This document shows positions 5,880 through 16,946 of a DNA stretch of 49,059 nucleotides, piece after piece; position 1 is the stretch's first letter; each line of letters begins with the position of its first letter. Under the pieces are notes generated by a model, which was not told the origin of the DNA, did not search any database, and saw nothing but the letters and a program-made list of their open reading frames with translations. Origin of the DNA: an uncultured Pelagibacteraceae bacterium (GTDB taxonomy: Bacteria; Pseudomonadota; Alphaproteobacteria; Pelagibacterales; Pelagibacteraceae); contig CACDLE010000005.1 of NCBI GenBank assembly GCA_902553555.1, forward strand, positions 1-49,059, given 5' to 3'. The position numbers and the translations under genes were made by a program.

Positions 5880-5956
<77 letters not shown>

Positions 5957-5963
5957 TAATCAT

Positions 5964-8186
5964 ATGAATATTGAAAAAGTAGTTGTAATCGGATCTGGAA
6001 CAATGGGAAGTGGAATTGCAGCGCATTTGTGCAATGCAAATATCCCAGTTGTTTTATTAGATCTTAAAACAGAAATTGCAGAAAAAGCTAAAGAAAGAAT
6101 TTTAAAATCTAGACCACCATTATTATTTGAAAAAGATAAAATTAAAAATTTAAAGGTTGGTAACATTAATGATAACTTTAGTAATGTTTCTGATGCAGAC
6201 TGGATTGTAGAAGCAGTTGTTGAAAGAATTGATATTAAACACGATATTTACAACAAAATATTCAATCAAAGAAAAAAAGACTCTATTGTCTCGTCAAATA
6301 CATCAACTATTCCTTTAAAAGTATTATCAGAAAAATTAAAAGCAGAGGACAAAAAGGATTTTTGTATTACACACTTTTTTAATCCAGTTAGATATATGGG
6401 ATTACTTGAAATAGTTATCGACAAGTTAAACGATCAAAATAAAATTAATTATTTGAAAGATTTTAGTGAAGAAAAATTAGGTAAAGGCGTAATTGTTTGT
6501 GGTGACACCCCTGGTTTTTTAGGAAACAGAATAGGAGTATATGCTATGCAAGTAGCGATGACTGAAGCGGTTAAAATGGATCTTTCTATTGAAGAGGCTG
6601 ATGCTGTGTTTGGTAGACCTATGGGTATCCCTAAAACAGGAGTTTTTGCTTTATATGACTTAATTGGTATTGATCTAATGTCAGACGTTCTCAAAAGTTT
6701 CCAAAAAGAGTTAGCTAAAGAAGATGAATTTCAAAAAGTTGTTTCTGGTTTACCAATTATTAAAAAACTAATTGAAACTGGTTATACAGGTAGAAAAGGT
6801 AAGGGAGGGTTTTATAGGATGAATAAGTCTGAGAATAAAAAAATTCTAGAAGCTCTTAACTTAAATAAAAATAAATATTTTCCAGTTAAAAAGATTGATT
6901 TAAAAATCGATAAGATAAATCTATTAGAATTAATAAACAGAAATGATAAGTATGGCAAATATGCATGGTCAGTAATATCAAAAATAATTTTGTATTCATC
7001 ATCACTGGTACCAGCTATAACTGATAAATATAATGACATTGATGAAGCTTTGAGACTAGGTTTTAATTGGTCTATGGGTCCCTTTGAAATGTTAGAGTCT
7101 GTAGGATTAAAAAATTTTTTTTCTAAAATTGGAGATATTAATCACAATGAATTTTTAAAAGACTTAAAAGAAAAAAAAGTAGATAGTTTCTATGATGAAC
7201 GACAAAAATATACTAATTTAGAAACTTTAGGAAAAATTAAAAAAAAAGTCATTAAATTAGACAAAAATGATTCAGCAGAAATATTTAGATTTAAAGATTT
7301 TAATATTGTTGAGTTTAATACAAAAGCAAATGCTTTAGATAATGACTCAATGGATGCTTTGAAAAGGGCTACAGATAAACCTCTAATTATAATAAATGAG
7401 AGCATGCAATTTTCAGCAGGAGTGAATCTTAATTATGTAATGGAATTTATTAAGAATAACGATACAAAGTCCGTTGAAAAATTTATTAAGTATTTTCAAG
7501 AAACTTGCAAGCATCTCAAATACTGTAAATACCCGGTTATATCTGCTCCGTCTGGCTTAGCTCTAGGAGGTGGAGAAGAAGTTGTGCTACAAAGTAATTA
7601 TGTAGTTACACATACTAATATAGTAATGGGTTTAGTAGAAACTATTGTTGGTTTAGTTCCTGCCGGCGGCGGTTGCAAAGAACTACTCTGGAGATGGTGT
7701 CAAACCAATGAGTCTAAAACAGATCCAGATTATGCTCCTTTAAAAGTTTTTGATATTATTGGTTACGCTAAAACTGCTACTTCGCCTCAAGAAGCAAAAC
7801 CTCTATTGTTTCTAGATGCTAATCATAACGTTATTATTAATAGAAATGAATTATTGCCTGCAGCAAGAGAATTACTCAATAAAAACGCAGTAAAGTCTCC
7901 TTCTAATGAATGTAAATTTAAACTTTCAGGTAAAAATGCTAGAGAAAAAATGCACAAAATACTTGAAGCATTATATAATGATAAAAAGATTCTAGATCAC
8001 GGTATAGAAGTTGGTAAAGAATTAGCATATGTTTTGAGTGGAGGAGATACAAATTTAGATAAAGAGGTTACAGAAGATCAAATGTATAAATTAGAATTAA
8101 ATAGCTTTATGAAGTTAGTAGAAAATAAAAAAACACAAGATAGAATTGTCCATACATTACAAACAGGAAAACCATTAATAAATTAA
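5964..8186 (+). CDS. 3-hydroxyacyl-CoA dehydrogenase / enoyl-CoA hydratase fusion (FadN-like domain order)
   Basis: A 740-aa two-function beta-oxidation enzyme. The N-terminal half is a NAD-binding 3-hydroxyacyl-CoA dehydrogenase (GSGTMG at residues 10-15, SSNTSTIP, ITHFFNP, DTPGFLGNR), followed by a second HAD C-terminal helical domain with MGPFEMLE. The last ~280 residues are a crotonase domain with ALGGGEE and GLVET. Both acid residues expected for hydratase chemistry (Glu539 and Glu559, 20 apart as in rat crotonase) are kept. The order dehydrogenase-then-hydratase is that of Bacillus FadN rather than E. coli FadB/FadJ. The start must be here because tRNA-Pro lies directly upstream. It abuts the DmdC-like gene, so a role in acyl-CoA breakdown linked to DMSP carbon is inferred. 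Confidence 0.9.
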   Translation: MNIEKVVVIGSGTMGSGIAAHLCNANIPVVLLDLKTEIAEKAKERILKSRPPLLFEKDKIKNLKVGNINDNFSNVSDADWIVEAVVERIDIKHDIYNKIFNQRKKDSIVSSNTSTIPLKVLSEKLKAEDKKDFCITHFFNPVRYMGLLEIVIDKLNDQNKINYLKDFSEEKLGKGVIVCGDTPGFLGNRIGVYAMQVAMTEAVKMDLSIEEADAVFGRPMGIPKTGVFALYDLIGIDLMSDVLKSFQKELAKEDEFQKVVSGLPIIKKLIETGYTGRKGKGGFYRMNKSENKKILEALNLNKNKYFPVKKIDLKIDKINLLELINRNDKYGKYAWSVISKIILYSSSLVPAITDKYNDIDEALRLGFNWSMGPFEMLESVGLKNFFSKIGDINHNEFLKDLKEKKVDSFYDERQKYTNLETLGKIKKKVIKLDKNDSAEIFRFKDFNIVEFNTKANALDNDSMDALKRATDKPLIIINESMQFSAGVNLNYVMEFIKNNDTKSVEKFIKYFQETCKHLKYCKYPVISAPSGLALGGGEEVVLQSNYVVTHTNIVMGLVETIVGLVPAGGGCKELLWRWCQTNESKTDPDYAPLKVFDIIGYAKTATSPQEAKPLLFLDANHNVIINRNELLPAARELLNKNAVKSPSNECKFKLSGKNAREKMHKILEALYNDKKILDHGIEVGKELAYVLSGGDTNLDKEVTEDQMYKLELNSFMKLVENKKTQDRIVHTLQTGKPLIN

Positions 8187-9947
8187 ATGACCACTTATAA
8201 TGCTCCAGTCGAAGATATGATGTTTCTTTTTGATAATCTTAAAGATAATAAGAATTATAAAGAGATTGATAAATTTAAAGATATAAGTTCTGACTTGGTA
8301 AAAGATGTTTTAGATCAAGCTGCAAAAATAAATCAAGAAATTGTACATCCTTTAGCTAAAATTGGTGATGAAAATCCATGTGTATATGAAAATGGAATAG
8401 TAAGATCTCCACCAGGTTATAAAGAGGCTTATAAAAAATTCATTACTGATGGGTGGACGTCTTTATCCTGTGATCCAAAATATGGCGGTCAAGGAATGCC
8501 AAAAACCGTAAGTACTTTTTTTGAAGAAATGTTATCTTCAGCAAGTTTATCATTTAAGTTATATAGTGAATTAAGTATCGGAGCTTATAATTGTATCCTT
8601 CATCACGCAGATGATGATATCAAGGACAAGTTTCTTCCAAAAATAGTAGAGGGAAAATGGAGTGGGACTATGTGCTTAACCGAGTCTCAATGCGGAACTG
8701 ATTTGGGTTTAATAAAAACTAAAGCAATCAAAAATACAGATGGATCATTTTCTTTAACTGGACAGAAAATATTTATAACATCTGGGGATCACGACTTAAC
8801 AGAAAATATCGTTCATTTAGTTCTAGCTAAAATACCAGGAGGACCTACAGGAACAAAAGGGATTAGTCTTTTTTTAGTTCCAAAATTTAATGTAAATGAA
8901 AATGGTACAGTAGGTTCTAGGAATGGTGTTAGCACATTATCTATTGAATCTAAAATGGGAATAAAAGGTTCACCAACTTGTGTTCTTAATTTTGACAACG
9001 CCAAAGGTTTTTTAATCGGTAAAGAAAATAAAGGATTAAGTTCGATGTTTACAATGATGAATTTAGAGAGAATTATAGTTGGTATACAAGGATTAGGTAT
9101 TGCAGAAACAGCCTATCAAAATTCATTAGCTTACACTAGAGAAAGGAAACAGGGTAAGTCGAACGATAATAAAAATGGTGATACAGATTTAATAATTAAA
9201 CATGCAGATATCAGAAGAAGTTTAATGAACATGAAATCAATAATTGAAGGTCAAAGATCTCTAGCTTTCTGGTTATCACAACAAGTTGATGTAAGTTTAA
9301 ATCATTCAAATGAAAATGTAAGAAAAGAAGCAGACGAAATGGTCTCCTTAATGACTCCTGTAGTAAAATCTTTCTTTTCAGATATGGGCATGGAAATAAC
9401 AAATGAAGCAATACAAATATTTGGTGGTTATGGCTACACAAGAGATCAAGGTATAGAACAATTATACAGAGATAATAGAATTACACCAATTTATGAGGGA
9501 ACCAATTCTGTGCAAGCAATTGATTTAGTATTTAGAAAAGTACTTACTAATCGAACGTTGGAAAAATTTATATCCTTGCTTCAAAATGAAATTAAAAATT
9601 ATGATGATAATGATGAATTAAAAAGACTATCCAACATTCTTAAAGAAAAGATAAAACTTTTATTAGATTTTTCAAAATGGTTAGAGGATAAGTTTAAAAA
9701 TCAAAAAGATGATGTTAGCGCGGCATGCAATGACTTTTTAAAAGTTCTTGGTTATGTAGCTTTAGGTTTTTCTTGGCTTAAAATGACCAAAGTAAGCTTT
9801 GATAATTCAAGTAAAAATAAAAACTTTTATGAAGAAAAGATTAATACTGCAAAATACTTTTTTGATAAAATTCTTCCTAAAATAGACAGTCATTATCATT
9901 CAGCAATAGCTGGTAGTGAAAGCTTGATGAAAGCTAAATTTAATTGA
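8187..9947 (+). CDS. dmdC: acyl-CoA dehydrogenase, DmdC-like (methylmercaptopropionyl-CoA dehydrogenase)
   Basis: FAD-dependent acyl-CoA dehydrogenase of 586 aa, the long form with an extra C-terminal domain seen in DmdC. It has the FAD/substrate motifs MCLTESQCGTDLG and TGQKIFITSGDHDL, the Arg-Gln FAD contacts region TRERKQGKS, IFGGYGYTRDQGIEQLYRD, and the catalytic-base motif IYEGTN with Glu437. In DMSP demethylation DmdC oxidises methylmercaptopropionyl-CoA to the acrylyl thioether. The assignment to DmdC rests on length plus clustering with dmdB and dmdA. By sequence alone a general medium/long-chain dehydrogenase is possible. No gap separates it from the gene before, and its stop overlaps the region of the ligase start. 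Confidence 0.78.
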   Translation: MTTYNAPVEDMMFLFDNLKDNKNYKEIDKFKDISSDLVKDVLDQAAKINQEIVHPLAKIGDENPCVYENGIVRSPPGYKEAYKKFITDGWTSLSCDPKYGGQGMPKTVSTFFEEMLSSASLSFKLYSELSIGAYNCILHHADDDIKDKFLPKIVEGKWSGTMCLTESQCGTDLGLIKTKAIKNTDGSFSLTGQKIFITSGDHDLTENIVHLVLAKIPGGPTGTKGISLFLVPKFNVNENGTVGSRNGVSTLSIESKMGIKGSPTCVLNFDNAKGFLIGKENKGLSSMFTMMNLERIIVGIQGLGIAETAYQNSLAYTRERKQGKSNDNKNGDTDLIIKHADIRRSLMNMKSIIEGQRSLAFWLSQQVDVSLNHSNENVRKEADEMVSLMTPVVKSFFSDMGMEITNEAIQIFGGYGYTRDQGIEQLYRDNRITPIYEGTNSVQAIDLVFRKVLTNRTLEKFISLLQNEIKNYDDNDELKRLSNILKEKIKLLLDFSKWLEDKFKNQKDDVSAACNDFLKVLGYVALGFSWLKMTKVSFDNSSKNKNFYEEKINTAKYFFDKILPKIDSHYHSAIAGSESLMKAKFN

Positions 9948-9949
9948 AA

Positions 9950-11578
9950 ATGAGTGTATACGAAAAAAATTTAGAAAAAAATAAAGCTAATTTCGTTCCC
10001 TTAACACCACTTACTTTTTTAGTTAGAGCAAAAGAAATCTACCCAAATTATGAAGCAGTAATTTATGAGGATAGAAATTACACATGGTCAGAAGTTTATA
10101 AAAGATGTGTAAAATTTGCCAGTGCACTCTCAAAAATTGGCATTAAAAAAGGTGACACTGTCTCTTTTTTAGCCTTTAACACACCTGAAATTTTTGAAGC
10201 TCATTATTCTGTACCTATGACAGGAGCAGTACTTAATACCATTAATATACGGTTAGACGCAAAAACCATTTCTTATATTTTAGAACATGCTGAAGCAAAA
10301 GTATTAATTGTCGATCGCCAGCTTCATGTTGAAGTAAAGAAAGCTTTAAGCACCATAAAGAGAAAGATTACCATCATTGATATTAGCGATAAGTATGCAG
10401 ATCATTCAAAGTGTGAAAAGATTGGTGATAGAGAGTATGAAGAATTTTTAAAAACTGGTGATGAGAATTTTCAATGGAATATGCCCGATGATGAATGGCA
10501 AGCTCTTTCACTAAGTTATACCTCTGGTACGACAGGAAATCCTAAAGGGGTAGTATATCATCATAGAGGGTCTTACTTAATGTCTACTGGTAGTGCTACT
10601 GCATGGAATATGCCTAATAGATTAAATTTTTTAACTATAGTGCCCATGTTTCATTGTAATGGGTGGGGTTATCCATGGACTGTACCAATGTTAATAGGTC
10701 GAACTATTTGTTTGAGAAATATTGACGTTAAAAAAATTTTTGAGTTAATAGACAAATACAATGTTACACATTTTGGAGGTGCTCCTATAGTTTTGAATAT
10801 GATAACGGGTGCTCCTGAAAAAGACAGGAAAAAATTAAAACAAAAAGTTTATGTTTTAACTGCTGGTGCACCACCTCCAAGTATCATTTTTAAAAAAATG
10901 AAGAGTCTAGGTTTTGAAGTTATGCACGTTTATGGATTAACAGAAACATACGGTCACGTAACTCAATGTGCTTGGAACGAGTCTTGGGATGAGCTTAATG
11001 AAGAAAAACAAAACGAGATTAAAGCTAGACAAGGAGTTCGATATCCAAACACTGAAGGTGTAGCTATAATGGATCCTGAAACAATGAAAGAAGTACCGAA
11101 AGATGGTAAAACTATTGGTGAGATAATGATCAAAGGTAACGTGGTTATGAAAGGATATTTTAAGGATAAAGACGCAACTGATAAAGCTATGAAAGGCGGT
11201 TGGTTCCACACGGGAGATTTAGCGGTGATGCATCCTGATGGTTATGTAAAAATCCAAGATAGATCGAAAGACATAATTATTTCTGGAGGTGAAAATATTT
11301 CGTCTATAGAAATTGAAAATACTTTAGCAAAACATCCATCAGTATCTATTGCGGCTGTTGTTGCAAAACCTGATGAAAAATGGGGAGAGGTACCATGTGC
11401 ATTTATAGAAATGGTTAAAGATAAACCAGTCACAGAAAAAGAACTAATTTCTTTTTGTAAAGAAACTTTAGCAGGATTTAAAGTTCCAAAAAAAGTGGAA
11501 TTTTGCGATCTACCAAAAACATCTACAGGAAAAATACAAAAATTTGAGTTAAGAAAAAAAGCTAAAGAATTAAACTAA
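9950..11578 (+). CDS. dmdB: AMP-forming acyl-CoA ligase, DmdB-like (methylmercaptopropionate-CoA ligase)
   Basis: ANL-superfamily ligase that activates a carboxylate with ATP and CoA. Motifs in order are the phosphate loop YTSGTTGNPKG, FHCNGWGYPW, YGLTETYG, the hinge HTGDLAV followed by DRSKDIIISGGENISS, and the adenylation lysine in STGKIQK (Lys528). Together with DmdC and DmdA in the same array it most likely makes methylmercaptopropionyl-CoA. The family also contains medium-chain fatty-acyl ligases, so substrate is inferred. A TTG 6 nt upstream overlaps the dmdC stop; I prefer the ATG, which gives an N-terminus (MSVYEKNL) resembling known DmdB proteins. Confidence 0.8.
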   Translation: MSVYEKNLEKNKANFVPLTPLTFLVRAKEIYPNYEAVIYEDRNYTWSEVYKRCVKFASALSKIGIKKGDTVSFLAFNTPEIFEAHYSVPMTGAVLNTINIRLDAKTISYILEHAEAKVLIVDRQLHVEVKKALSTIKRKITIIDISDKYADHSKCEKIGDREYEEFLKTGDENFQWNMPDDEWQALSLSYTSGTTGNPKGVVYHHRGSYLMSTGSATAWNMPNRLNFLTIVPMFHCNGWGYPWTVPMLIGRTICLRNIDVKKIFELIDKYNVTHFGGAPIVLNMITGAPEKDRKKLKQKVYVLTAGAPPPSIIFKKMKSLGFEVMHVYGLTETYGHVTQCAWNESWDELNEEKQNEIKARQGVRYPNTEGVAIMDPETMKEVPKDGKTIGEIMIKGNVVMKGYFKDKDATDKAMKGGWFHTGDLAVMHPDGYVKIQDRSKDIIISGGENISSIEIENTLAKHPSVSIAAVVAKPDEKWGEVPCAFIEMVKDKPVTEKELISFCKETLAGFKVPKKVEFCDLPKTSTGKIQKFELRKKAKELN

Positions 11579-11591
11579 TTTAATTATAATA

Positions 11592-12041
11592 ATGGCAAAA
11601 ATTTCAATTAATCTTAAGTGGAATCTTGATGGTGGAGAATTATCACCTGGCAAATATTCAAATAAACATCAAATAGAATTTAACGATGAGATTGTTATAA
11701 ATGGTGACGCAGCTCCAGATTGGAACGGAAACAAACAAAATAGTAATCCCGAACAAGCACTTGCAGCAGCATTAAGCAGTTGTCATATGATGACTTTTTT
11801 AGCTCTTGCTGCCAAAATGAATTGGCCAGTATCAGGATATACAGACAACGCAATAGCAACTTTAGGAAAAAATTCCAAAGGCAAAATGTCAGTAACCAAT
11901 ATTGAATTAAATCCAAAGATAGCATTTTCAAATGAATTCTCTGTAGATGAAAACAAAATGAAAGAGGTGCAAGAGAGAGCTCATCGATATTGTTTTATAG
12001 CTAACTCTTTGTCAGATGAAGTGAAGGTAAAGATTAACTAA
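11592..12041 (+). CDS. OsmC/Ohr-family thiol peroxidase-like protein
   Basis: A 149-aa OsmC-fold protein with the two redox cysteines in ALSSCHM (about residue 63) and HRYCFIANS (about residue 133). Such proteins reduce organic hydroperoxides using lipoylated proteins or thiols. The placement between the DmdB-like ligase and a crotonase is notable: methanethiol and other reactive sulfur species are made by the demethylation route, so a protective or sulfur-handling role is a fair inference but not shown by sequence. It is separated from its neighbours by 13 and 3 bp, so it belongs to the same transcript. Confidence 0.88.
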   Translation: MAKISINLKWNLDGGELSPGKYSNKHQIEFNDEIVINGDAAPDWNGNKQNSNPEQALAAALSSCHMMTFLALAAKMNWPVSGYTDNAIATLGKNSKGKMSVTNIELNPKIAFSNEFSVDENKMKEVQERAHRYCFIANSLSDEVKVKIN

Positions 12042-12044
12042 CCC

Positions 12045-12854
12045 ATGAATTATAGAAAAAATAGCAAAGTTTTAGAAACCTCTTTATATGAAAATGGGGT
12101 AATGCGTTTTAACTTAAATAGTCCAGAGAATTTAAATGCTCTTTCTGAAAATATGATGGATTTAATGCAAAATGCTTTGGACAAGGCAAGTCATAATAAA
12201 AATGTAAGAGTAATAATAATTTCAGGAGAGGGATCAACATTTTCATCTGGACATGACTTAAAAGAGTTAAAGGCTGCAAGAAAAGGTGCAGATAAAGGAA
12301 AAAAATATTTTTTAAAAATAATGAAAAAATGTTCAAAGATGATGCAAACAATAATTAAATGTCCAAAACCAATAATTGCAGAAGTTGAAGGAACAGCTAC
12401 AGCCGCTGGGTGTCAATTAGTTGCAAGTTGTGATTTAGCATATGCTAGCAGCTCAGCTAAATTTGCAACTCCTGGGGTAAATATAGGTTTATTTTGTTCT
12501 ACACCCATGGTTGCAGTTTCGAGAAACTTATCCAATAAACATTCTATGGAAATGCTTTTAACTGGAGAATTAATTTCATCAGATAAAGCCGCTAAAATTG
12601 GTTTAATCAACGATGTTATTGAAATAAATAAACTTAAAGATTTTACATTGGATAAAGCTCAAAAAATTTCAAAAAAATCCTCAGTAACTTTAAAAATCGG
12701 TAAAGAAGCTTTTTACAAGCAATTAGATATGAAACTTTCCGATGCTTATGATTATGCTTCAAAGGTAATGGTTCAAAATATGCTTAAACTAGATGCAAAA
12801 GAGGGTATCGATGCTTTCATTGATAAACGAGAACCTAACTGGAAAGATAAATAA
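12045..12854 (+). CDS. ECHDC3-like crotonase-fold protein (enoyl-CoA hydratase/isomerase family)
   Basis: A 269-aa crotonase-superfamily protein. The oxyanion-hole segments FSSGHDLKEL and ATAAGCQLVASCD and the helix FATPGVNIGLFCSTP match the ECHDC3 subgroup. At the positions of the two hydratase glutamates it has Gln124 and Gly144, so ordinary enoyl-CoA hydration is unlikely and the reaction is unknown. It sits where a dmdD would be expected in a demethylation cluster, but DmdD relies on two glutamates and this is therefore not a plain DmdD. It could bind a CoA thioether or perform thioester chemistry. It starts 3 bp after osmC. Confidence 0.82.
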   Translation: MNYRKNSKVLETSLYENGVMRFNLNSPENLNALSENMMDLMQNALDKASHNKNVRVIIISGEGSTFSSGHDLKELKAARKGADKGKKYFLKIMKKCSKMMQTIIKCPKPIIAEVEGTATAAGCQLVASCDLAYASSSAKFATPGVNIGLFCSTPMVAVSRNLSNKHSMEMLLTGELISSDKAAKIGLINDVIEINKLKDFTLDKAQKISKKSSVTLKIGKEAFYKQLDMKLSDAYDYASKVMVQNMLKLDAKEGIDAFIDKREPNWKDK

Positions 12855-12874: not shown

Positions 12875-13651
12875 TTGATTACAGAAATTAAAAAGAAAAA
12901 AATATTTTCAAATGATGTTGGTCATCCTTTTGATAAAAAAAAACCGACTATCGTTCTATTGCATGGCAGTGGCCAGTCTCATGTTGTTTGGTCTTTAACT
13001 GATCAATTTTTAGCTGATAAAGGTTTTAATGTATTTAATTTAGATCTTCCAGGACATGGCAATTCCGAAGGACCTTGTTTAAAATCAATAGAAGAAATAT
13101 CAAATTGGATAAATGATTTTGTTGATCATGTTGGTATTGAAAAATCTATATTGATTGCACACTCTCAAGGATGTTTAGAGGCCATAGAATTTACGAAAAA
13201 CTTTCCAAAAAAAGTTGAAAAAATAGTTTTCATTGCTGGGTCCTATTCTATTCCTGTTAACAAAAGTTTAATTGATCTAGCTTTATCTGGTGATATGGAA
13301 GCCCTAAATTTAATGATGAAATGGGGATATGGATCTTCAAAACAATTTATTGGAGGCAATCCATTACAAAAAATACTTAATTCTTCTAGAGAGGTAAGAG
13401 AGGTTCTAGCTGTTGACTTGATTGCTTGTAATAATTACAAAAATGGTGCTGATGCGGTAAATAGTATAACGTGTCCGACATTTTTTATTTTTGGTGAAAT
13501 TGATAAGATGATTAGATTAGAATCAGGAGAGAAATTTGCAAAAATGATTAACAAATCTAAAGTTCATATAATTAAAAATTGTGGTCATATGATAATTTTA
13601 GAAAATGCGTTTGAGATGAGAGAGAAGATTTTAGAATTTTTAAACAAATGA
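12875..13651 (+). CDS. alpha/beta hydrolase
   Basis: A 258-aa alpha/beta-hydrolase-fold enzyme with a complete triad: nucleophile Ser97 in AHSQGC, Asp210 in FGEID and His238 in CGHM, plus the oxyanion motif HGSG at residues 30-33. The substrate is not known. The TTG start is supported by a TAAAGG stretch about 8 nt upstream and the lack of an ATG before the first core strand. Its stop overlaps the ATG of dmdA by 4 bp (ATGA), so its translation is coupled to dmdA. Hydrolysis of a thioester or ester arising from DMSP breakdown is a reasonable guess. Confidence 0.85.
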   Translation: MITEIKKKKIFSNDVGHPFDKKKPTIVLLHGSGQSHVVWSLTDQFLADKGFNVFNLDLPGHGNSEGPCLKSIEEISNWINDFVDHVGIEKSILIAHSQGCLEAIEFTKNFPKKVEKIVFIAGSYSIPVNKSLIDLALSGDMEALNLMMKWGYGSSKQFIGGNPLQKILNSSREVREVLAVDLIACNNYKNGADAVNSITCPTFFIFGEIDKMIRLESGEKFAKMINKSKVHIIKNCGHMIILENAFEMREKILEFLNK

Positions 13652-14754
13652 AGAATTTTTACATAAGTAAATCACGAAGAGTAAGGTCTACACCTTTTAC
13701 AAAAAAAATAGAAGAGCAGGGTGTCAAAAGCTATACAGTTTATAATCATATGTTACTGCCAACCTCTTTTTCCAATGTTGATGAAGAATATTTGCATTTA
13801 AAAAAAGATGTTCAGCTTTGGGATGTTTCAGTGCAAAGAGAAATAGAAATTTCAGGTAAAGACGCACATCAACTAGTGCAATTAATGACATGTAGAGATC
13901 TTTCTAAATCAAAAGTAGGCAGTTGTTATTATGTACCATTAATTGACTCAAATGGTGGAATGGTAAATGATCCTTTAATTTACAAGTTAGAGGATAATAT
14001 TTGGAGAGTATGCATAGCTGACTCAGATGTTTTATTATATGCCAAAGGAATTGCAGCGGGAAAAAAACTAAATGTAAAAATATTTGAGGCGAATATTGAT
14101 ACTTTGGCTTTACAAGGTCCAAAGTCATTTAAATTAATGGAGGACGTGTTTGGGAAAGAAATTAGCGAGTTAAAATTTTTTAAATATAATTTTTTTAAAT
14201 TTAAAAATAATAAGTTTTTAATTTCTAGATCAGGGTTTTCTAAACAGGGAGGTTACGAAATTCATGTAGAAAATGTAAAAGCTGGTTTGGAGTTATATGA
14301 TTATTTCTTTGAGGTAGGAAAAAAATATAATATTAAACCAGGAGCACCTAATCATGCTGAAAGGATTGAAGGAGGCTTATTGTCATATGGAAACGATATG
14401 CTTATAAGCGATAATCCGTTTGAATGTGGTTTTGAAAAACTAGTTCATCTAAACGACAATGTAGAATTTATAGGGAAAGACAGTTTAAAAAAGATTTTGA
14501 AAAATGGTATTAAAAGAAAATTAATGGGTGTAAAGATTAATTCAGATACATTAAACTTATTGAGTGTAGATTTGTTAGATAAGAAAAAACAAATAATAGG
14601 TAATTTAAGATCTGCCGCTTTTTCTCCATCTTTCAAAAAGATAGTTGGGATAGCTATGATTAATAAAGAATATTGTAAAAATAAAGAGATTTTTAAAATC
14701 AATTTAAATGACGATTTACTAGATGGCGAAATTTGCGAATTACCAATAACTTAA
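13648..14754 (+). CDS. dmdA: dimethylsulfoniopropionate demethylase DmdA
   Basis: Tetrahydrofolate-dependent enzyme of the glycine cleavage T-protein (GcvT) fold that removes one methyl from DMSP to give methylmercaptopropionate and 5-methyl-THF. The 368-aa length, the N-terminus with ISKSRRVRSTPFT, the block QLMTCRDLSKSKVG, ALQGPKS, RSGFSKQGGYEIH and GLLSYGNDM match my memory of Pelagibacter DmdA rather than GcvT or dimethylglycine dehydrogenase. The flanking DmdB- and DmdC-like genes support it. It looks divergent from the best-known Pelagibacter copy in many surface positions, so clade assignment needs an alignment. It starts inside the alpha/beta hydrolase stop codon. Confidence 0.87.
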   Translation: MKNFYISKSRRVRSTPFTKKIEEQGVKSYTVYNHMLLPTSFSNVDEEYLHLKKDVQLWDVSVQREIEISGKDAHQLVQLMTCRDLSKSKVGSCYYVPLIDSNGGMVNDPLIYKLEDNIWRVCIADSDVLLYAKGIAAGKKLNVKIFEANIDTLALQGPKSFKLMEDVFGKEISELKFFKYNFFKFKNNKFLISRSGFSKQGGYEIHVENVKAGLELYDYFFEVGKKYNIKPGAPNHAERIEGGLLSYGNDMLISDNPFECGFEKLVHLNDNVEFIGKDSLKKILKNGIKRKLMGVKINSDTLNLLSVDLLDKKKQIIGNLRSAAFSPSFKKIVGIAMINKEYCKNKEIFKINLNDDLLDGEICELPIT

Positions 14755-15042: not shown

Positions 15043-16047
15043 ATGTGGCGTAGTTTTTTTACAGAGAAAAAATGGTTATTATGGTCGTGGGGCGGTTTTG
15101 CATTCATAATTTTATCTTTACTAGCTCAGACGTATATAGATGTTAAAATAAATGAGTGGTACAAAGGTTTTTACGACCTTTTACAAAAAGCGCCAGAACG
15201 TGAATTGTCCGAGTTTTACGACGGTATTTACTTGTTTATGAAATTGGCAATTCCCTATGTTATAATTTACACAGTCACTAATTATTTCACTAGGCTTTGG
15301 GCTTTTAGATGGAGAGAAGCCATGACTTTCTCTTATATGCCATATTGGAGAGCAGTAGATGCAAAAGTAGAAGGCGCCTCTCAAAGAATTCAAGAAGATG
15401 CCATGAATTTTGCTAAAATTGTTGAGAGTTTAGGTTTACAAATAGTAAGAGCTATAATGCTTTTAATAGCCTTTATACCTATTTTATGGGGCTTATCTTC
15501 AAATGTTGTAATACCATTTTTTAAAGACATTACTGGCTCTCTTGTTTGGGTTTCACTGACGGCTAGTTTAGGAGGTTTAGTTATAAGCTGGTTAGTAGGT
15601 ATAAAACTTCCTGGTTTAGAATATAACAATCAAAAAGTGGAAGCGGCTTTTAGAAAAGAACTTGTTTATGGCGAGGATGATAGAAAAAACTATGTTCAAG
15701 CACCAACAATTTTTCAATTATTTACAGGGATAAAGTTTAATTATCACAGATTATTTTTGCATTATGGATATTTTGATTTATGGATAATAATGTACAACCA
15801 AACCATGATAATTGTTCCTTATCTTTTAATGGGACCAGGTTTATTCACAGGAGCTATGACTTTAGGCGTTTTAATTCAAACCTCTTCTGCTTTTAGAGAA
15901 GTTCAAAGTAGTTTTTCTTTATTTTTACAAAATTGGACCAGGATTACAGAATTAAGATCAATCTATAAACGTTTAAATGAATTTGAAGTTGCAATCAATT
16001 TTAAAAATAAGTTGAGAAAACCTAGAAAATCTGATGTAAGAGCTTAA
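15043..16047 (+). CDS. SbmA/BacA-like inner-membrane transporter
   Basis: A 334-aa membrane protein with about six hydrophobic segments. It resembles SbmA/BacA, the proton-driven importers of peptides and other bulky solutes whose membrane part looks like an ABC exporter but lacks the ATPase. The WRSFFTEKKWLLWSW start, the NEWYKGFYDLLQ block and the RIQEDAMNFA segment are the recognisable parts. It is shorter than E. coli SbmA (about 400 aa), as expected for the single-domain form. No ATPase partner is adjacent. Its last base overlaps the ATG of the next permease. Confidence 0.8.
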   Translation: MWRSFFTEKKWLLWSWGGFAFIILSLLAQTYIDVKINEWYKGFYDLLQKAPERELSEFYDGIYLFMKLAIPYVIIYTVTNYFTRLWAFRWREAMTFSYMPYWRAVDAKVEGASQRIQEDAMNFAKIVESLGLQIVRAIMLLIAFIPILWGLSSNVVIPFFKDITGSLVWVSLTASLGGLVISWLVGIKLPGLEYNNQKVEAAFRKELVYGEDDRKNYVQAPTIFQLFTGIKFNYHRLFLHYGYFDLWIIMYNQTMIIVPYLLMGPGLFTGAMTLGVLIQTSSAFREVQSSFSLFLQNWTRITELRSIYKRLNEFEVAINFKNKLRKPRKSDVRA

Positions 16048-16946
16048 TGGAGCTCTATTTAAAGTTAATCGACGTACTCTTTCCTGTCTTCTTCATAATT
16101 GGAGTAGGTTATTATCTTGGTAAAAAAGATCCAAATTTTGATACAACTTTCATAACAAACTTTGCCGGAAATATCGGTACACCAGCAATGATTTTTTATA
16201 CAATTACAACAACTGGGGTAACTCTTGATATCTTTATTGAATATTTTATTTATGCTGTAGTTATAATTGCAGGATTTGCAGTTGTGGGTTTCATATTTTT
16301 ATTCATTCTTAAAAAAGATACTATTACAGAATTACCACCATTAATTTTACCAAATACTGGCAACATGGGAATTCCTATATGTCTGTTTGCTTATGGTACA
16401 GAAGGTTTGGGAGTGGCATCCGCCATTGCATCTGTAATTATTTTGTTTCACTTTACTATCGGTGTTTTATTGGCCAAAAAAAGTTTTTCACTAGATATTT
16501 TAGTAAAAAATGTTCCTATCTATGGAATTATTATTGCAGTTCTTTTTCTCTACTTTGAATGGGATGTTCCAGGATATATTGAGAATACTACATTTTTATT
16601 AACTTACACTACAATATTTTTAGTTTTAATGTCTTTGGGCATTGCATTAACAAGACTCAAAGTTGTATCTTGGACACACGCATCAATACTTGGGGCGGTT
16701 AGGGTAGTTATTGGTCCAATTATAGGTTTTGCTCTTATTAAATTTTTAGGACTTACGGGTTTTGCTGCTGGAGTTCTGTTAATTCAATCATCTATGCCTA
16801 GTGCAGTTTTAACTTACTTAGTTGGGTCAATGTACTCAGAAAAGAAGGCAGTAGACAACGTAGCTAGTGTTATCGTTACTTCTACTTTAATGTCATTTAT
16901 CTCTGCTCCAGTTATTGTTTATATTAGTCTACTTTTTTTTCAATAA
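16047..16946 (+). CDS. AEC-family (auxin efflux carrier-type) permease
   Basis: A 299-aa, roughly ten-helix permease of the AEC/BART superfamily, with the usual two-repeat layout and mid-protein glycine/asparagine motif LPNTGNMGIPI. Characterised relatives carry malate, malonate or other carboxylates by secondary transport. It is the last gene of the DMSP array and overlaps the SbmA-like gene by one base. A role in movement of DMSP-derived acids is possible, but substrate cannot be read from sequence. It ends just before the gene-free spacer and accessory island. Confidence 0.85.
   Translation: MELYLKLIDVLFPVFFIIGVGYYLGKKDPNFDTTFITNFAGNIGTPAMIFYTITTTGVTLDIFIEYFIYAVVIIAGFAVVGFIFLFILKKDTITELPPLILPNTGNMGIPICLFAYGTEGLGVASAIASVIILFHFTIGVLLAKKSFSLDILVKNVPIYGIIIAVLFLYFEWDVPGYIENTTFLLTYTTIFLVLMSLGIALTRLKVVSWTHASILGAVRVVIGPIIGFALIKFLGLTGFAAGVLLIQSSMPSAVLTYLVGSMYSEKKAVDNVASVIVTSTLMSFISAPVIVYISLLFFQ

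Follow-up and report, generated by a model that had tools for sequence, protein, structure and literature searches.

Which enzyme frees methanethiol during DMSP breakdown in SAR11 bacteria, and whether an unusual crotonase could do so, are the questions raised by this locus. SAR11 bacteria rank among the main consumers of DMSP and producers of methanethiol; Pelagibacter makes methanethiol without DmdD orthologs, MetY consumes it, and the gene for the releasing step has been stated to be unidentified (PMC5069961). The absence of DmdD from Pelagibacter is already published. The stretch of DNA analyzed here, 49,059 nucleotides from an uncultured Pelagibacteraceae bacterium (the window), carries a tight plus-strand operon of seven genes. 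It opens with a 3-hydroxyacyl-CoA dehydrogenase/enoyl-CoA hydratase (HAD-ECH) fusion (5961..8186, 741 aa, domains 3HCDH_N, 3HCDH and ECH_1), followed by a DmdC-like acyl-CoA dehydrogenase (8187..9947, 586 aa, Acyl-CoA_dh_N/M/1 and Acyl-CoA_dh_C) and a DmdB-like PRK08162 acyl-CoA synthetase (9944..11578, 862 bits against a cut-off of 677), the substrates of these last two being suggested by their context. An OsmC-family protein (11592..12041, PF02566, 64 bits against 27.5) precedes the crotonase in question (12045..12854, 269 aa), and an alpha/beta hydrolase (12875..13651, PF00561), a candidate for hydrolysis of a CoA thioester or of the aldehyde product, leads to the DMSP demethylase DmdA (13648..14754, NF009133, 494.5 bits against 410). 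The synthetase scores 350 bits with NF005426, the 3-(methylthio)propionyl-CoA ligase profile, where the cut-off is 822, and operon context suggests that it acts like DmdB.

The start of the operon needed one correction. The TTG at 5913 that had been called as the start of the fusion falls inside a tRNA gene (5880-5953), so we place the start at the ATG at 5961. The tRNA gene ends 8 bases before this ATG (window positions 5880-5961), and the operon promoter must therefore lie in or before the tRNA. Scans for operon promoters and terminators in the window did no better than on shuffled sequence, and no SAM riboswitch of the kind reported before osmC in P. ubique was found within the window. Downstream of dmdA (15043-16946) come an SbmA/BacA-like transporter and an AEC-family permease, in an order that recurs in nearly all genomes of two of the SAR11 genera compared below (g1 and g2); they may serve the DMSP operon in uptake or export.

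The identity of the crotonase is clear at the level of family. It scores 379.4 bits with the curated PRK08139 profile (NF006008), above the cut-off of 313, and its translation has Q124 within GCQLVASCD and G144 within ATPGVNIG. In an alignment of this protein with human ECHDC3, the solved canonical hydratase 2pbp, and the fusion, Q124 occupies the Glu column of GGGFEL and G144 the Glu column of PEVNLG, and human ECHDC3 has Q and G in the same two columns. The human protein also shares the full signature of H70, Q124, G144, and C151, and it and its PRK08139 relatives have identical TAAGCQLVASCD and FATPGVN motifs; what sets the window protein apart from them is its place in a DMSP operon. An AF2 model (pLDDT 93) agrees, since the closest solved structures are human ECHDC3 (2vx2; Z 35.9, rmsd 1.2, 44% identity) and M. 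smegmatis 3myb, as compared with Z 31.4-31.8 and 24-25% identity for DmdD structures, a comparison in which the common crotonase fold is no proof of function. The original prediction of Gln124 and Gly144 at the catalytic positions of an ECHDC3-like protein is thus borne out, and the open-access literature that we found names no reaction for ECHDC3 or its PRK08139 relatives.

A crotonase without its catalytic acids could be a decayed DmdD, and this identity can be ruled out because the Q/G state is invariant across the ECHDC3 family, human ECHDC3 included. Among 175 distinct family relatives, H70, Q124, G144, and C151 are invariant in 174/174 filled columns; the set is biased by 80 loci that were recruited with a peptide pattern containing Q124 and H70, and the signature holds equally in the unbiased SAR11 (38/38) and phylum-wide HMM (60/60) subsets. 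The Q/G state is therefore a trait of the whole family and not peculiar to this gene. No replacement acid near the pocket is invariant among the 175 relatives, the only acids above 97% being E253 and D130, and the latter belongs to the CD motif, where canonical hydratases have it too.

The significance of the two missing glutamates can be judged from two better-known enzymes. AcuH is an acryloyl-CoA hydratase able to replace DmdD, and we take PDB 5xzd to be its structure. The window protein is homologous to AcuH (E 1.7e-35) and shares its fold, but it does not have the Glu pair of the GGGxEL and PExxxG motifs found in AcuH and canonical hydratases, Glu112 and Glu132, which AcuH needs, E112A and E132A both being dead (PMC5651017). 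Ruegeria pomeroyi DmdD (4izc, 4izd) likewise shares the crotonase fold and also the pathway slot between DmdC and methanethiol, but it belongs to another subfamily, and its two catalytic glutamates, E121 and E141, are replaced here by Gln and Gly; in DmdD, E121A releases zero MeSH and E141A has a kcat/Km about 88,000-fold lower (PMC3660561). Alanine is neither Gln nor Gly, which makes these mutants an argument, rather than proof, against an ordinary hydratase, and on this comparison the ECHDC3-family protein should not be a DmdD-type hydratase by function. A hidden DmdD or AcuH was sought with PF00378 in the genome that the window comes from (716 kb assembled, 63% complete) and in its relatives, and none was found, so the original prediction that no plain DmdD is present holds across that search. 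A MaoC hydratase was ruled out as a substitute, as such enzymes are missing from 13/15 genomes examined.

These results direct attention to the fusion, which had been proposed as the only hydratase with both acids. That proposal stands, and it extends across complete SAR11 genomes; its numbering does not, because the acids are E540 and E560 rather than Glu539 and Glu559. Both are invariant in 23/23 fusion sequences, and position 539 is variable, with F or K in other fusion sequences. The HAD motifs HFFNP and LLEI are intact, and the ECH_1 match of the hydratase domain is weak at about 40 bits. The fusion resembles FadB-type HAD/ECH fusions (NF052272, beta-oxidation alpha subunits) in having HAD followed by a C-terminal ECH over the full NF052272 length; it differs in scoring about half the curated cut-off (Staph_FadB, 512.7 against 999 bits), in sharing an operon with DmdC, DmdB, and DmdA, and in having no adjoining thiolase in the window. 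Its relatives are enzymes of fatty-acid beta-oxidation, and a thiolase is carried by 14/15 dmdA-positive SAR11 genomes tested (the exception being the incomplete genome of the window), so the fusion may serve general beta-oxidation.

Co-occurrence was surveyed in 148 genomes of the family, each at least 88% complete except the window's own, with totals of 116 for dmdA, 106 for the ECHDC3-like gene, and 113 for the fusion. The ECHDC3-like gene is found in 102/116 dmdA-positive versus 4/32 dmdA-negative genomes and the fusion in 108/116 versus 5/32 (Fisher p <1e-14 for co-occurrence with dmdA, a statistic that ignores relatedness). Both genes are present in 94 of the 116 dmdA-positive genomes and neither in 0; 14 keep the fusion without ECHDC3 and 8 have ECHDC3 without the fusion. 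Neither gene is strictly universal, and draft gaps may explain both sets of absences. In the window's genus, dmdA, the ECHDC3-like gene, and the fusion coincide exactly, in 8/22 genomes; its dmdA-negative members (L009, L010, L011, L018) have a two-Glu hydratase, a MenB/BadI-like crotonase, or both, which are missing from the dmdA-positive members. Five dmdA-positive genomes at 99-100% completeness (G051, G060, G061, G063, G064) have exactly two crotonases, the ECHDC3-like protein and the fusion, which shrinks the candidates to two expressible, testable proteins. In dmdA-positive G070 (97% complete) and G106 (94%), no crotonase was matched other than the fusion, which in G066, G084, and G142 is joined by one sub-threshold crotonase match. 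The third crotonase of some genomes of the main SAR11 genus (g4) is PRK06127/PRK06144-like.

The explanation that we prefer, at about even odds (roughly 0.5), is that the fusion hydrates methylthioacryloyl-CoA (MTA-CoA) and the ECHDC3-like protein performs a companion step on a sulfur-linked acyl-CoA. We infer the division of labor and all substrates other than that of DmdA. DmdA would convert DMSP to MMPA, the PRK08162 ligase would convert MMPA to MMPA-CoA, and the DmdC-like dehydrogenase would oxidize this to MTA-CoA. The E540/E560 pair of the fusion would then add water to give a hemithioacetal, whose breakdown would yield malonate-semialdehyde-CoA and free methanethiol. The ECHDC3-like protein, with its intact oxyanion hole and invariant H70, Q124, and C151, may act on a related sulfur-bearing acyl-CoA. 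We favor the fusion as the MTA-CoA hydratase because of its co-occurrence with dmdA, the genomes with only two or one crotonase, and the retention of both acids. The original prediction had offered a choice between hydration by the fusion and methanethiol release by a new enzyme. This was a fair alternative, and the evidence leans to the fusion, because DmdD and AcuH are inactivated when either Glu is mutated and the fusion is the only crotonase of several dmdA-positive genomes, a new enzyme being the less likely choice.

Gene order was also compared across four SAR11 genera (g1 to g4). Wherever a contig covers the region, g1 and g2 genomes retain all seven genes in the order of the window, with the exception of one g2 genome (G038) that has dmdA without this arrangement, and NhaA lies upstream of these operons with SbmA and the AEC permease nearby. 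In one genome, G004, the operon crotonase is split by a frameshift (L005:3564-4371), which is either a pseudogene or an assembly error. The g3 operon retains the fusion, adjoining DmdC, DmdB, and DmdA, and ECHDC3 and OsmC lie outside it. In g4, a genus with complete genomes of 1.2-1.5 Mb, the operon is DmdC-DmdB-hydrolase-DmdA, and the fusion is located elsewhere, as is an ECHDC3 with 51-57% identity. This separation in g4 counts against the fusion as the hydratase, as do the 8 dmdA-positive genomes that have no fusion, its beta-oxidation relatives, and its weak ECH_1 match.

The same separation lends some weight to a less probable but tenable alternative in which the operon carries the ECHDC3-like protein along with no connection to DMSP chemistry, its role being that of a general acyl-CoA binding or housekeeping enzyme. 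The ECHDC3 family is ancient and widespread, being present in 83/299 genomes of the phylum and in human mitochondria, and in many Alphaproteobacteria it sits beside rplM-rpsI in a conserved neighborhood. A bystander, however, would not be expected to occur in the window's genus exactly where dmdA does (8/8), and its linkage to DmdA-family, OsmC, and ligase genes appears again in Rhodobacteraceae in another gene order. The window clade is also separate from the g4 clade: a quick tree places the window ECHDC3 clade (8 rows, SH-aLRT 100) apart from the free SAR11/g4 clade (9 rows, 100). The placement of both against the Rhodobacteraceae cluster group has weak support of 82-89 by the same method, and acquisition of the dmd-linked copy by transfer is at most a possibility.

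An external base such as bicarbonate has been proposed for Gly-type MenB, and a comparable device figures in the unlikely case that the ECHDC3-like protein itself frees methanethiol without glutamates, whether by hydration or by beta-elimination of the methylthio acyl-CoA, through H70/Q124/C151 or such a base. Its gene directly follows OsmC in the g1 and g2 operons, its four signature residues point to a conserved active site, its family recurs by MetY, PRK08162 ligase, OsmC, and DmdA-like genes in varied orders and lineages, and it is present in the 8 dmdA-positive genomes that miss the fusion. Set against this, DmdD and AcuH lose all or nearly all activity when the corresponding glutamates are removed, the 14 dmdA-positive genomes without ECHDC3 keep the fusion, and G070 and G106 match no crotonase other than the fusion. 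It is very unlikely that neither crotonase acts on MTA-CoA and that methanethiol is freed instead by the alpha/beta hydrolase or by some unrelated enzyme, for although the hydrolase is linked to dmdA in every contig-covered dmdA operon inspected in the four genera except L035 (none detected), and adjoins it more closely than either crotonase does, a two-acid hydratase domain lies in the same operon in g1-g3, and we know of no alpha/beta hydrolase that hydrates enoyl-CoA.

The companion step assigned to ECHDC3 in our preferred explanation draws on a pattern that is new here, namely that ECHDC3-like genes recur by methylthio and sulfur genes in several lineages and orders. The Rhodobacteraceae examples (Marivita, Sulfitobacter, Yoonia, Nioella, and MAGs) have ECHDC3 beside OsmC and a DmdA-like gene, often accompanied by a PRK08162 ligase. 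Clusters of this kind (L102, L105, L108, L118, L197) place the four genes side by side as in the window, with a crotonase 54-57% identical to the one described here, but they differ in gene order, in having no adjoining DmdC or fusion, and in a DmdA-like protein that is 34-37% identical to that of the window; two such proteins tested score 368-378 bits, below the DmdA cut-off of 410. In Hyphomicrobiales and others, the genes after ECHDC3 encode a CoA-binding protein and then MetY, both named from their sequences by inspection rather than by profile. Of 92 ECHDC3 loci, 56 have the CoA-binding gene nearby (a SAR11 query adds 9) and 40 have MetY; the figures for 60 phylum-wide loci are 18 and 11. 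The Hyphomicrobiales ECHDC3-MetY cases have the rplM-rpsI neighborhood in common and are not independent. Other orders are CoA-binding, MetY, x, ligase, ECHDC3 in L215 (another class of the phylum), CoA-binding, ECHDC3, ligase, DmdA-like in L202, and OsmC, ECHDC3, ligase in L220. This recurrent linkage points to a reaction on a sulfur-linked acyl-CoA and is a first testable lead on what ECHDC3 does.

A broader proposal, which we regard as quite improbable, would make the ECHDC3 family as a whole, its SAR11 and human mitochondrial members alike, a group of glutamate-independent enzymes that act on methylthio acyl-CoA thioesters to liberate methanethiol or some other thiol and feed MetY in bacteria. 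If true, methanethiol release in SAR11 would be the work of ECHDC3, and so, possibly, would the corresponding step when mammals break down 3-methylthiopropionate, a mammalian link that we infer here and that no paper we found makes. Some further features of these neighborhoods can be recorded. The loci L111, L115, L132, L174, L184, and others have rplM-rpsI divergent from ECHDC3, the CoA-binding protein, and MetY, often with CtaA. Of the Rhodobacteraceae clusters (L102:6247-10432, L108, L118, L123, L197, L200), some include an Lrp/AsnC-type regulator, the PRK08162 ligase being usual, and in L197 a GbdR-like regulator lies downstream of the cluster. In SAR11 of the main genus (L036:4277-5639), ECHDC3 is followed by the CoA-binding protein, with MTHFR-like and GcvT-like genes nearby.
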